Origin: Nitrospirae bacterium JdFR-86 | Lineage (GTDB): Bacteria; Nitrospirota; Thermodesulfovibrionia; Thermodesulfovibrionales; JdFR-86 | Assembly: GCA_002011815.1 (NCBI GenBank) | Contig: MTOV01000009.1 | Coordinates: 43,653-77,264 of the forward strand | Direction of reading: 5' to 3' | Length of the DNA stretch: 33,612 bases | In this document: piece by piece, positions 10,760 through 16,188 of the stretch | How positions within the stretch are numbered: the first letter of the stretch is position 1 | Layout: each line of letters begins with the position of its first letter | Notes under the pieces: model-generated | Databases searched by the model: none | Told to the model about the DNA's origin: nothing | The model's input: only the letters and a program-made list of their open reading frames with translations | Program-made: the position numbers and the translations under genes

Positions 10760-11488
10760 GTGAGAAAGGATTTCATTTCAGTCATAATACCAGCATATAA
10801 CGAAGAACCCCGGATTTCTGAAACACTAAAGAAGATTCATCAGTATCTCAGGGAAAATTTTGAGGACTTTGAAATCATAGTCGTAGATGACGGAAGCACT
10901 GACAGCACGGCAGCACTGGTCAGCGCAATCAGAAACGAACTCTCCGGGATAAAGCTCCGACAGAACGGAAAAAATATGGGAAAAGGCTTTTCCGTGAAAA
11001 ACGGGATACTGTCCTCAAAAGGCAATCTTGTTCTCATGTCTGATGCAGACCTGTCAACCCCCATTGAAGAACTGCAAAAGCTTCTTCCGTTCATTGACAG
11101 AGGCTTTGACATAGCCACAGGCTCACGTGGACTGAAAGAGTCTGACATCGTCATAAGACAGCCTTGGTACAGGGAAAGAATGGGAAAGACATTCAATGTG
11201 TTTGTCCGCCTTCTGCTCATAGGCGGGATAAAAGACACGCAGTGCGGATTTAAGCTTTTCAAAGGGGATGTTGCCCGGCGGGTATTTGGAAAAACCAGAA
11301 TACACGGATTCAGTTTTGACGTAGAGGTTTTATTCATTGCAAAAAAGATGGGCTATAAGATAAAAGAAATTCCCATAAGGTGGCTTAATTCCCCGGATTC
11401 AAAAGTCAGGGTGTTTAAAGACTCTGCAAAGATGCTTCTTGAGCTTCTGAAGATAAAGGCGTACGGGCTTACCGGCAGATACGGATAG
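10760..11488 (+). CDS. Family 2 glycosyltransferase, dolichyl-phosphate mannosyltransferase-like
   Basis: Transfers a sugar from a nucleotide donor, probably to a polyprenyl phosphate. The GT-A fold motifs are present: ISVIIPAYNEEPRI, IIVVDDGSTDST, GKGFSVKNGI, LMSDADLSTPIEE (DxD-type metal site) and DTQCGFKLFKGDVARRVF. There is no C-terminal membrane domain, unlike many polyprenyl-phosphate glycosyltransferases, so it is probably membrane-associated at most. The GTG at 10760 is chosen because AGGA stands six bases upstream and the glycosyltransferase fold starts immediately; a longer in-frame reading from 10583 adds 59 residues that resemble nothing. 242 aa. Only 3 nt separate its stop from that of convergent fur. 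Confidence 0.9.
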   Translation: MRKDFISVIIPAYNEEPRISETLKKIHQYLRENFEDFEIIVVDDGSTDSTAALVSAIRNELSGIKLRQNGKNMGKGFSVKNGILSSKGNLVLMSDADLSTPIEELQKLLPFIDRGFDIATGSRGLKESDIVIRQPWYRERMGKTFNVFVRLLLIGGIKDTQCGFKLFKGDVARRVFGKTRIHGFSFDVEVLFIAKKMGYKIKEIPIRWLNSPDSKVRVFKDSAKMLLELLKIKAYGLTGRYG

Positions 11489-11491
11489 CAA

Positions 11492-11922
11492 TCACTTCTT
11501 TCTTTTTTTTCTGCATGCCTTACAGTATCCTTTTATTTCGAGTGTATGGGTTACGCCTTCGAAGTTTTCACTCTTGCAGAGCTTGTCCTGAAGTCTTTCA
11601 AGTGCTTCTGAATAGAACTCTATCACCTTACCGCAGGAGATACAGAGCATATGGTCGTGGTGACCTTTGCCTGTGTGTTCATAATGTGCATGCTTGTCTG
11701 TTCTTTCGACCTGCTCAAGCAGACCGCTTTCAAGGAGCAGGGGCAGGGTTCTGTAGACCGATGCCTTTGAGACTCTCAGTCCGTTTTTTTTCAGGGCAAG
11801 GTGAAGCTCCTCAAGGTCAAAGTGTCCGCGGCGGGAAGTTATCTCTTTTATTATAGCCTCACGCTCTTTTGTAAACCTGAGTCCTTTCTTCTTGAGAAAT
11901 TCTTTAAATTCTTCTACCCCAT
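11492..11922 (-). CDS. fur: Fur-family ferric uptake regulator with an apparent one-base frameshift at the start codon
   Basis: A full-length Fur-family reading frame runs from codon GTA at 11917 to TGA at 11494-11492 (141 codons). It has a winged helix (FTKEREAIIKEI, SKASVYRTLPLLLESGLLE), the metal site GKGHHDHMLCISCGKVIEF and a C-terminal GYCKACRKK; both CxxC pairs are intact. This frame has no ATG, GTG or TTG between the preceding in-frame TGA (11938-11936) and the codons deep in the metal site. The only plausible start, ATG at 11922-11920, lies two bases after the stop of the DtxR-FeoA gene, but there it reads ATG GGG TAG. One more G in the G-run would give M-G-V-E-E-F-K-E-F-L, a normal Fur N-terminus (143 aa). 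Causes could be a sequencing or assembly error, a real lesion, or -1 slippage on GGGG before TAG. Identity of the family is secure; expression is uncertain. Confidence 0.85.
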
Positions 11923-11924
11923 TT

Positions 11925-12599
11925 TTATGCCTGCTTCACGTATATTCCTTTAGCTATATCCTCACCGACAGCCAAAGTGGTCTCATCTATTTCCACGACA
12001 TATGACGGTTTTTTCTGCTGAAGTCTTATACTTGCACCTGGCACAAGTCCCATGGATGCAAGCCTGTCCATTGCCGGCGCGGTTATAAAAAGCACTTTTG
12101 CCTGTTTACCCACTTCCAGGTCTTTGAGGCTTTGCACAAGTGGCTGGACTTTTTTTGCATAAAGCTCACAGCACTTTCCCTTAGGTATGGGTCTTCCGTG
12201 CGGGCATAAAGGCGGATGTCCGAGAAAGGTGCATATCGCCTCTTCGACCTCAGGGCTTATCACGTGTTCAAACCTGCATGCATCCTCTTCGTAGTCCGTC
12301 AGGTCAAGGACATCTGCAAAAAGTCTTTCAGCAAGAAGATGGCGTCTGGTGATATCTCTTGCCCTGCACTCGCCCTCTTCTGTGAAATAGATTTTGTCGT
12401 CCTGAATCATTATAAGACCGTTGGCCTGCATCCTGCGTATGCTTTCTTCATTGCCGAGCTCCTCTACGACATCAGCAAGCCTTACGGCTTCACTCTTCTC
12501 TCTTATTTCCCAGACGGTCTCCAGCACTTCGTCCTCAAAGAGGCTTTCTTCGGTGCTGGACCGAGCCGCTCTTCTGCAGGGCTTTCCTATCTCTTCCAC
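11925..12599 (-). CDS. DtxR/MntR-type metal-dependent regulator fused to a FeoA domain
   Basis: The protein has an N-terminal helix-turn-helix, a dimerisation and metal domain (RRHLLAERLFADVL; CRFEHVISPEVEEAI with the Cys, Glu and His ligands; GHPPLCPHGRPIP) and a C-terminal SH3-like FeoA domain (residues ~145-224; APAMDRLASMGLVPGA). I chose GTG at 12599 because AGGAGG lies five bases before it; an upstream in-frame ATG at 12626 has no such site. 224 aa. The recognition-helix region (EEL to GLI) is about 12 residues against about 20 in DtxR, so DNA binding may differ. It sits between feoB and fur and may be the only FeoA in the operon. It probably regulates iron or manganese genes, but the metal is not certain. 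Confidence 0.9.
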   Translation of the reverse strand: MEEIGKPCRRAARSSTEESLFEDEVLETVWEIREKSEAVRLADVVEELGNEESIRRMQANGLIMIQDDKIYFTEEGECRARDITRRHLLAERLFADVLDLTDYEEDACRFEHVISPEVEEAICTFLGHPPLCPHGRPIPKGKCCELYAKKVQPLVQSLKDLEVGKQAKVLFITAPAMDRLASMGLVPGASIRLQQKKPSYVVEIDETTLAVGEDIAKGIYVKQA

Positions 12600-12637
12600 T
12601 GATGCCTCCTGTCCAGAGTTCCACATATTTTACTGAA

Positions 12638-14632
12638 CTATATATTAATGTCAAATGTTCTGAGTATCCAGTTAAGCACTCCGCCGGCAAGCACTGCAAC
12701 CGGTATTATTATTGCGAGCATTGTAAGGGACATGCGTAGTCCGCGTTCTTTTATCATCATAAGAAAGTGTGCCAGACACGGCACAAACAGTGTTATGGTC
12801 ACGAGACTTACAACCGTCTGCACAGGCGTAAGGAGTCCGTCCTGAGCCATTGCGAAAAGTCCGGCTGCTCCGTAATCACGTCTGAAAAACCCGATTAAGA
12901 ACGCCTCTGTTGTCTTTGCAGGAAGTCCGAGCACGCCAACGACAACCGGTGATGTAATCTTTTCAATGACACCTAATATTTTCAGCTTGTCGAGGACAAA
13001 GAGTATAAAAGTGCCGAGCATGAAAAGCGGCACAGCCTCTTTCAGATACCACACAGCCCTGCCTGCTGTCTTCACAGTCACATTGCTTATGGACGGCATC
13101 CTTATAGGCGGAATTTCAAGGAAGAACTCTGACTGCTCACCCGGCACAATCTTGGATGCAAGATAACCGACAAAAAGCAGCACTCCGAGGACACTAAACA
13201 ACCATATAGCCAGAGCCTTTGCCGACAGCGCACTGAGCATTCCCAGTATAACGCCAAGCTGTGCAGAGCACGGCACTGCAAGTGCAAGAAGGAACGTGGC
13301 TATTATCCTGTCCCTTCTGGACTCCAGAATCCTCGTGGTCATCACCGCCATTGTGCCGCAGCCAAGCCCCAGAACCATAGGCAGAACCGCCTTCCCGCTA
13401 AGCCCCATGATGTTGAACACCCTGTTGGACATAATCGCAAGTCTGGGCAGATAACCGCTGTCTTCGAGTATGGAAAATGCAATGAAAAACGTAGTGGTTA
13501 TCGGCAGTATTATGCCTATGGCATATGTAAGAGCCATTGTGATGAGCCCGTATTGCCCGACGAACATCTCCTGAAGGAATTTTACAGGGATTATCGCCTC
13601 TATTGTCTTTATAAACATAGGGTTCAGATACTTCCCGAAGATGGTCTCTTCAAGGAAGTCAACGAGTATGCCTGCACCGAATACACCCACGAATTCATAA
13701 AGACCGTAAAGCACCAGAAGAAGTACAAGAAGTCCCCAGAAAGGATGCATGCTCGCCCTTCCTATATAGACTGAAAGCGAGCCTCCCTTCTGCGGAGACT
13801 TCTTCATGACCATATTCGTTATCTCGCCTGCCTTTTTAAAACGGATTTCATTGACGATTAAGCCCACGGGTCTTTTAACCTTCTTCTGGCATTCATCTCT
13901 GAGGTCTTCAAGCTTCTGGATTGTAGCTTCCTCAAGGTTTGCATTAAGCCAGCCTCTTAAGCTTTCGTCCCCTGAAAGTATCATCAGGGCAAGAGACCTT
14001 TTTGAGATATTTGTTTCAGGCAGATAAGAGGCGACCCTTTCTATATAGTCTTCTATTACACTGCCGTAGTGGATTTTGATTTGCGGCACTTTTGGTATTT
14101 GCTGGCTTATGGCGGCTTTCAGGGTCTTTATTCCTTTTCTTTCGGGTGCGATAGTGCCCACCACCTCTACGCCGAGCACTTCTTTCAGTTTCTTTGTATC
14201 TATAATTATTCCTCTGTCCCTTGCCTCGTCCTCCATGTTCAGGTCAAGAATCACAGGCAGTCCCATCTCAGCAAGCTGTATTGTAAGCAAGAGGGTTCTC
14301 TTGAGGTTTTTTGCATCACCCACCTGCAGGACCAGCGATGGCTTTTCACTCAAGAGGATGTCTCTTGTAACCCTTTCGTCCTCACTCATTGGGATGAGGC
14401 TGTTTACCCCGGGCGTGTCCACCAGCAGGAACTTCTTTCCGTCGAGGGTTATGTTGCCGTGAAAGACCTCGACCGTAGTGCCCGGATAGTTCGATACGGC
14501 AGCGTATTTTCCTGTAAGAAGCCCGAATATAATGCTTTTTCCCACATTAGGGTTTCCGATGAGTGCAATGCGCTGGTATCCGCTTCCGGTTTTATATCCT
14601 TTATCACGATGGCGGTGCCGATGTCGGTGCAT
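12638..14632 (-). CDS. feoB: Ferrous iron transport protein B
   Basis: Inner-membrane Fe2+ transporter with an N-terminal GTPase. The G motifs are visible: G1 GNPNVGKS at residues 26-33, G2 NYPGTT, G3 DTPGVNSL and G4 NMED. The C-terminal ~380 residues are hydrophobic, with the two gate repeats (RLAIMSNRVFNIMGLSGKAV with GLGCGTMAVMTTR, and GFFRRDYGAAGLFAMAQDG). The N-terminus MHRHRHRHRDKGYK is unusual, with four His-Arg repeats before the G domain. At 664 aa it is shorter than E. coli FeoB (773) but complete. GGGGAGGT lies eight bases before the ATG. First gene of feoB-dtxR/feoA-fur, with a Fur-box-like operator at its promoter. Confidence 0.97.
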   Translation of the reverse strand: MHRHRHRHRDKGYKTGSGYQRIALIGNPNVGKSIIFGLLTGKYAAVSNYPGTTVEVFHGNITLDGKKFLLVDTPGVNSLIPMSEDERVTRDILLSEKPSLVLQVGDAKNLKRTLLLTIQLAEMGLPVILDLNMEDEARDRGIIIDTKKLKEVLGVEVVGTIAPERKGIKTLKAAISQQIPKVPQIKIHYGSVIEDYIERVASYLPETNISKRSLALMILSGDESLRGWLNANLEEATIQKLEDLRDECQKKVKRPVGLIVNEIRFKKAGEITNMVMKKSPQKGGSLSVYIGRASMHPFWGLLVLLLVLYGLYEFVGVFGAGILVDFLEETIFGKYLNPMFIKTIEAIIPVKFLQEMFVGQYGLITMALTYAIGIILPITTTFFIAFSILEDSGYLPRLAIMSNRVFNIMGLSGKAVLPMVLGLGCGTMAVMTTRILESRRDRIIATFLLALAVPCSAQLGVILGMLSALSAKALAIWLFSVLGVLLFVGYLASKIVPGEQSEFFLEIPPIRMPSISNVTVKTAGRAVWYLKEAVPLFMLGTFILFVLDKLKILGVIEKITSPVVVGVLGLPAKTTEAFLIGFFRRDYGAAGLFAMAQDGLLTPVQTVVSLVTITLFVPCLAHFLMMIKERGLRMSLTMLAIIIPVAVLAGGVLNWILRTFDINI

Positions 14633-14657
14633 GTACGGCTACCTCCCCTTATTGTTA

Positions 14658-14674
14658 TTGAGACTCATTCTCAA
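14658..14674. promoter_or_regulatory. Fur-box-like palindrome in the feoB promoter
   Basis: TTGAGACTCATTCTCAA has 6-bp perfect arms (TTGAGA/TCTCAA). Read on the minus strand, TGAGAAT-G-AGTCTCA matches the 7-1-7 Fur consensus TGATAAT-N-ATTATCA at 11 of 14 positions. It begins three bases downstream of the -10 box and covers the expected transcription start, which is typical for repression. Confidence 0.65.
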
Positions 14675-14677
14675 TAA

Positions 14678-14706
14678 AGTATACACCATATACCCTGCCC
14701 TGTCAA
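14678..14706 (-). promoter_or_regulatory. Strong sigma70-type promoter of the feo operon
   Basis: On the minus strand a perfect TTGACA (14706-14701) is followed by exactly 17 nt and TATACT (14683-14678; five of six). Just downstream are the Fur-box-like palindrome and then the ribosome binding site at 14648-14641. Confidence 0.8.
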
Positions 14707-14757
14707 GGGTTATGGAAAGGTCTCTAATTAAAATAAAAATTTCAGGCTTGCGGGGAG

Positions 14758-14898
14758 GTCGAAGCGACTCTGCGCGAAGACTCGCTTCGAGTCGAAGCGT
14801 TAAGAATTAATTCGTGTTTGAGGTCGTTTCGACCGAGTTGGAATTAATTCAGCGGAGACCGGCCGAGCGGAACGCCCGGAGGGTCACAGACCCTTTTT
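14758..14898 (+). other. Highly structured non-coding element with alternative hairpins and a terminator-like end
   Basis: This is the core of the only long gene-free stretch (14633-15078). CGCTTCG at 14783-14789 can pair either with CGAAGCG at 14760-14766, as part of a 12-bp stem with one mismatch, or with CGAAGCG at 14793-14799, a perfect 7-bp stem with a 3-nt loop. Then comes GAATTAATTC twice (14804-14813, 14841-14850) flanking the hairpin GGTCG-TTT-CGACC (14822-14834). It ends in GGGTC-ACA-GACCC-TTTTT (14881-14898), which resembles an intrinsic terminator. It could be a small structured RNA on the plus strand or a palindromic mobile repeat. I see no convincing promoter and no coding frame. 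From 14899 to about 14988 I see nothing definite. Confidence 0.45.
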
Positions 14899-14988
14899 AA
14901 TATACGCTTGAAGTGCTCTTAAAAGTGACTGTACCACCGGGCAAAAAAGTGTCGGGGGTTGGGCAGAGGCAACGATACAGCAAATCAT

Positions 14989-15006
14989 TTGACAACATGT
15001 TATAAT
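14989..15006 (+). promoter_or_regulatory. Candidate promoter upstream of the glutamate synthase operon
   Basis: TGtTATAAT (14998-15006) is a perfect extended -10. TTGACA at 14989-14994 is too close to serve this box (6 nt), but is 18 nt before TATTCT (15013-15018), so two overlapping promoters are possible. Either would start near 15013-15025, just before the hairpin at 15025-15047. Confidence 0.5.
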
Positions 15007-15024
15007 AAATTTTATTCTAAACAG

Positions 15025-15047
15025 ACGGCAGCCGATTGCCGTTTTTT
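15025..15047 (+). terminator. Intrinsic terminator-like hairpin in the glutamate synthase leader
   Basis: ACGGCA (15025-15030), loop GCCGAT, TGCCGT (15037-15042), with a run of six T from 15042. It lies between the candidate promoter and the first glt gene, so it would act as an attenuator, or else it ends a short upstream RNA. The stem is only 6 bp, so strength is uncertain. Confidence 0.45.
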
Positions 15048-15078
15048 AGTCTAAAATTAGGAGCATATATACAGAATA

Positions 15079-16188
15079 ATGTGCCGCCTGGCAGCCATAA
15101 CATCCAATGAATATTTCTCCCCGATGGAGAACATCGTTGCCCTTGAGACGATGAAAGAAGGGCATGACGGCTCTGGCATGGGACTGGTGCTCAAAGACCT
15201 TAACGGAGAGTTCCGCGAACTGAAAGACTATCCCATACTGTCAGGCATATGCTCAAAGGACGGCTACAGAAAACTCGAAGACTACATGCAGAGCCTCGGC
15301 TTCAAGGAAAAGCACATGTGGTCTCCTGCAATAAGACCTGTCAAGGGTATAGAAAAGAGGGATTACTACTTCGCAAAGGTTTATCAGTATCCTGAAGAAT
15401 ACCTTGACAAGCCATGGGCTGAAAAAGAAGACCTTCTTATGAAGACCCGCATAGCCCTTAGAAAACTCGGTGAGGAAGACGAATCCATAGTGGTGTTTTC
15501 ATTTTACCCTGACATCATCACTATAAAAGAGGTTGGAGACCCGCTTACCCTTGGCGAGTTCTTCGGGCTTGATAAGTCTAATTTAAAGGCGAAGATAATT
15601 TTTGCACAGGGCAGGCAGAACACAAACTATGCAATAAACCTTTATGCCTGTCACCCGTTCTTCATACAGGGTTATTGCACGATGACGAACGGAGAAAACA
15701 CTGCTTTTGTTCCCATAAGGGAGTTTCTCATGAGCAGGGGATTTCCAGGCTATATCGGCTACAACAGCGACAGCGAGGTCTTCACGCACATCCTGCACTA
15801 CACACGCAGACAACTGGGCTTCCCGCTTACATATTATAAAGACATAATAACCCCGCTTAAAGACACCGAGATAGAGAAAAGACCTGACAGGGACGCACTC
15901 AGGCTCCTGAAGGCATCCCTCAGGATGCTTACCATAGACGGTCCGAACTGTGTTATAGGTTTTACTCCTGACGGGACGTGTTTTATGGTTCAGGATTCAA
16001 AGAAACTAAGACCCGGTGTGGTCGGAGGCGTTAAAGGCAAATATGCCCTTATGTCAGAGGAATGCGGTCTTGACAGGGCTATACCTGACAGAGACAGGTC
16101 TAAAGACGTATTCCCGATGAAATACGACATGGTCATCGTCTCACCGGGAGCTAAAGAGGTAAAGGTATGGAACCAGCTACATGGTTAG
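15079..16188 (+). CDS. Glutamate synthase, class II glutamine amidotransferase subunit (split GltB N-terminal part)
   Basis: Releases ammonia from glutamine for the partner synthase subunit. After removal of Met1 the N-terminal Cys2 (MCRLAAITS) is the nucleophile, so the start codon is fixed; GHDGSGMGL follows. The conserved Asn/Asp part TNGENTAFVPIREFLMSRG and the GYNSDSEVFTHIL segment are typical of the family. It has 369 aa, matching the stand-alone amidotransferase subunit of archaeal-type split glutamate synthases. GGAG at 15060-15063 is 15 bases from the ATG, unusually far; TATATA ends seven bases before it. First of three overlapping genes. Confidence 0.92.
   Translation: MCRLAAITSNEYFSPMENIVALETMKEGHDGSGMGLVLKDLNGEFRELKDYPILSGICSKDGYRKLEDYMQSLGFKEKHMWSPAIRPVKGIEKRDYYFAKVYQYPEEYLDKPWAEKEDLLMKTRIALRKLGEEDESIVVFSFYPDIITIKEVGDPLTLGEFFGLDKSNLKAKIIFAQGRQNTNYAINLYACHPFFIQGYCTMTNGENTAFVPIREFLMSRGFPGYIGYNSDSEVFTHILHYTRRQLGFPLTYYKDIITPLKDTEIEKRPDRDALRLLKASLRMLTIDGPNCVIGFTPDGTCFMVQDSKKLRPGVVGGVKGKYALMSEECGLDRAIPDRDRSKDVFPMKYDMVIVSPGAKEVKVWNQLHG

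Follow-up and report, generated by a model that had tools for sequence, protein, structure and literature searches.

A fur gene one base out of frame with its start codon in the assembly of Nitrospirae bacterium JdFR-86

Nitrospirae bacterium JdFR-86 carries a gene for the ferric uptake regulator Fur that, in the genome assembly, lies one base out of frame with the only ATG well placed to start it. The lesion is almost certainly an isolated mutation or base-calling slip and not a programmed switch. It is very probably an unprogrammed one-base loss between the fur ATG and the first conserved Phe codon, confined to this assembly. It was seen directly that the frame is broken, that it is one base short by comparison with the closest relative, that none of the relatives compared shares the break, and that the remainder of the gene is intact. 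The main relevance is for annotation: automatic gene calling would probably omit or shorten fur, with the risk that its absence from the organism is wrongly reported.

The fur reading frame and its start

The window (the whole stretch of DNA analyzed, 33,612 nucleotides) carries fur on its minus strand. Read on that strand, the stop codon of the dtxR-feoA gene (TAA, 11927-11925) is followed by AA, ATG (11922-11920), GGG (11919-11917), and TAG (11916-11914). The ATG at 11922, the ancestral fur start position, therefore reads ATG-GGG-TAG (11914-11922, minus strand) and now meets an in-frame stop after two codons; direct reading of the sequence places a short Shine-Dalgarno-like match, AGG (11930-11932, minus strand), 7 nt before it. 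The Fur reading frame (11492-11917, minus strand; 141 codons plus stop) is one base off this ATG. It opens GTA-GAA-GAA-TTT at 11917, runs to a stop at 11492, and is complete except for an in-frame start. From stop to stop, the frame spans 147 codons (11935-11492). None of the standard starts ATG, GTG, and TTG precedes its DNA-binding domain, and the vicinity of the expected start position offers no near-cognate codon either. As assembled, fur is thus not a translatable gene with an in-frame start. Ribosomes reinitiating at the ATG at 11922 after dtxR-feoA would be expected to make fMet-Gly and then stop, and from the sequence as written no Fur would be made.

The encoded protein is itself intact. 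Residues 16 to 134 of 147 matched the Pfam FUR domain (PF01475) at 113.9 bits (cut-off, 23.1), the HHDHMLC motif and both CXXC motifs are present, and the best solved relatives are the Fur structures 6d57 and 4ets (E value about 7e-26). By its FUR domain with winged helix and its metal-binding motifs, the product is a predicted member of the Fur family, which it resembles in the full-length match and in these motifs and from which it differs in that the gene as assembled has no in-frame start codon. The preliminary description had proposed a complete Fur from 11917 to 11492, with helix-turn-helix and metal site, in a frame with no usable start codon, and both points hold. Across 51 relatives, 35 columns show conservation of 95% or more, and the window protein keeps every one of them. 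Its branch (0.15) is the shortest of its family in a tree built from 59 Fur proteins, the others measuring 0.25 to 0.42. The short branch and the kept columns together argue that Fur has not decayed in this genome and, therefore, that the lesion is either very young or absent from the organism. With the rest of the frame pristine, either the consensus is wrong here or the null arose very recently.

Relatives and an audit of the assembly

The source genome (2.10 Mb, 25 contigs, completeness of 100) was compared with relatives, among them five others of its family and none of its genus; the matched records bearing a name were mostly from the Nitrospirota (Thermodesulfovibrionales and neighbors). 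An in-frame fur start, usually an ATG located 2 to 5 codons upstream of the aligned position, was found in 71 of 71 related loci (L003 to L073) and in 14 of 14 further loci, two sets that overlap in part, with some of the same genomes in both collections. Conservation of GGGG followed by TAG between species had been put forward as a check on programmed slippage; this junction occurred in none of the 71 and 14 loci. No relative was found in viral contigs.

The closest junction found (L196, at G128:C16:484-900) encodes a Fur with 75% amino acid identity to that of the window and shares 71% nucleotide identity over dtxR-feoA plus fur, together with the TAA-AA-ATG arrangement. The distance from ATG to the first conserved Phe codon is 15 nt in L196 and 14 nt in the window, so the window gene is exactly one base short, as had been proposed, and the shared junction and spacing place the fur start at the ATG directly after the dtxR-feoA stop, where the preliminary description had put it. 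The L196 genome belongs to another family (f10) and is 73% complete; in both its feoB-dtxR/feoA-fur order and its Fur sequence, the contig is nearer to the window than any genome of the window genome's own family, and it is perhaps misbinned.

Among the genomes compared, the break is unique to the window genome and confirmed by homologues, the pattern of a singleton indel or sequencing error. In the GeneTack classification, singleton frameshifts confirmed by BLASTp and Pfam are regarded as likely sequencing errors or recent indels (PMC3711429). The fur break is like these prokaryotic singletons in being homologue and Pfam confirmed and not common to relatives, and unlike them in falling within the first codons, where it resembles a missing start and not a split gene.

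We audited 1.2 Mb of the source genome against 0.98 Mb of a same-family genome (G001) for other frame losses. Among 333 orthologues, one candidate emerged (C7:75573-76306), which was rejected because it reads as an antisense open reading frame spanning two genes; no other credible frameshift was found, and the 16 alignments containing a stop look, by position and reading, like overextended or antisense frames. Frame loss was detected at none of the 120 G/C runs and 1,573 A/T runs of 5 or more in the 297 intact stretches (298.8 kb of aligned coding sequence), which makes a systematic homopolymer error unlikely. When a random one-base deletion was placed in each stretch, 176 of the 297 (59%) were detected, or about 77% away from the ends; the audit therefore has power inside genes and little at gene ends.

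Starts were tested in 250 source-genome orthologues, four of which, fur included, had no standard start. The remaining three comprised a gene with ATC after a good Shine-Dalgarno sequence, a gene with CTG at the aligned start, and an alignment apparently inside or against another frame. Apparent starts at CTG (C2:39149, minus strand) and ATC (C1:307676, plus strand), both following good Shine-Dalgarno sequences, were also seen in two conserved genes of this genome. In the reverse test, 6 of 303 genes of G001 had no standard start, several having CTG at the aligned position. The fur gene is the only unexplained missing start among the 250, and with no other credible frameshift among the 333 its lesion is a singleton. 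A generally poor assembly was rejected as the cause, since the assembly is otherwise clean.

The audited 1.2 Mb also held 67 isolated single N characters, often clustered. In long open frames, 40 of 63 fell at third codon positions, against a chance expectation of one-third. Their position suggests ambiguous base calls where the population is polymorphic, and the assembly probably represents the consensus of a mixed population; a wrong consensus and a segregating deletion would then both gain in plausibility.

Explanations for the missing base

The preliminary description had offered a sequencing error, a null mutation, or a −1 slip of the ribosome; the first two stand and slippage falls, no relative having GGGG-TAG. 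We consider the chance about even that only the consensus lacks the base and that fur is functional in the organism, a reading weakened by the improbability of systematic homopolymer error. Also a serious possibility, at somewhat under even, is a genuine deletion that inactivated fur very recently and is either fixed or carried by part of the population; this reading is weakened in turn by how few real frame losses the audit found in conserved genes. This division is inferred and reflects judgement, not measurement; both are ordinary events. Under a genuine null, the DtxR-FeoA protein, whose gene lies directly upstream, would be left in charge of iron control, and a PerR-like member of the Fur family would remain elsewhere in the genome. 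Such a loss is favored by the audit, which detected no other frameshifts, by the DtxR-type repressor in the same operon, by a second Fur-family gene in the genome (C8:81652; best scores to PerR models, below their cut-offs), and by the third-position N characters, which suggest that the consensus was built from a population where a variant might segregate. Against it, the conserved columns are intact and Fur shows no acceleration, so a loss, if real, would be very recent; the operator-like palindrome before feoB is also still perfect, though DtxR-FeoA could be its binder. If the deletion is real, Fur would have been lost naturally in a lineage whose fur operon also encodes a DtxR-FeoA regulator, a finding of modest interest.

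Programmed or conditional −1 slippage is highly improbable. Here the Gly tRNA on GGG would slip back one base to a GGG that uses the G of AUG, with UAG waiting in the A site, and GUA-GAA-GAA would then be read into Fur. Full P-site re-pairing is possible after a −1 slip at G_GGG, the stop directly follows, and the downstream Fur frame is fully conserved. The junction is like the Z_ZZN tetramers of −1 frameshifting (PMC4066793) in having G_GGG before a stop codon, but it is unlike them in being conserved in no relative and in having no stimulator: shuffled sequences fold as stably as the 131 nt spanning the site (z = −0.15, pseudoknot-free folding), and no Rfam match lies in 11300-15200. The junction contains no known slippery motif, only G_GG.G, which a systematic test in E. 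coli judged non-frameshifting with or without a strong pseudoknot and found above background only through presumed initiation at a downstream codon (PMC4066793). The arrangement was not seen in a second gene across the audited 1.2 Mb, and a literature search turned up no report of Fur being subject to programmed frameshifting at a start codon. Slippage confined to this species has only the sequence reading in its favor and is likewise improbable. A start-proximal −1 slip on AUG-GGG-UAG specific to this one genus, making Fur synthesis conditional on, for example, release-factor or initiation state, is more doubtful still. For phase variation, the break offers no hypermutable repeat tract, only four G residues; intact audited genes contain 817 G/C runs of exactly four.

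It is likewise highly improbable that Fur is started by a rare in-frame codon or by a +1 shift out of dtxR-feoA that yields a fusion. The apparent CTG and ATC starts elsewhere in the genome lend this some plausibility, but the local codons (AGG CAT AAA AAT GGG GTA GAA GAA TTT) include no NTG or ATN, and close relatives begin at the very ATG from which the window's Fur frame is displaced. Other start codons within that frame were rejected, as none is present. A +1 shift from dtxR-feoA into Fur fits the frame relation and was rejected because relatives contradict it and there is no known shift site; to our knowledge, the dtxR end, CAG-GCA-TAA, is not a +1 site. Reading UAG as sense was also rejected, since the frame would remain wrong and TAA follows soon after. 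The isolated one-base loss remains the best explanation.

The operon and neighboring features

The minus strand carries, in order, feoB (12638-14632), dtxR/feoA (11925-12626), and fur; the second encodes a DtxR-type repressor with a C-terminal FeoA domain directly upstream of fur. Between a likely promoter and feoB lies the palindrome ATTGAGA-ATGAG-TCTCAAT (14657-14675, minus strand), a candidate iron-regulator operator that is preceded by a promoter-like TTGACA and is the sole exact match to TTGAGAN5TCTCAA in the genome. Similar motifs (TTGAGACTCAATCTCAA) occur upstream of fur in several relatives (L030, L064, and L066), and because of these the ATTGAGA-N5-TCTCAAT palindrome may be the iron-regulator operator of this order.

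An antisense open frame of 113 amino acids (11515-11856, plus strand) lies over fur and might be annotated by a gene caller in its place. Upstream of feoB, the window at 14710-14960 (minus strand) is part of a dispersed repeat family with 38 matches in the genome, itself included, that are up to 98% identical and consist of at least two modules (query positions 11 to 85 and 81 to 170).
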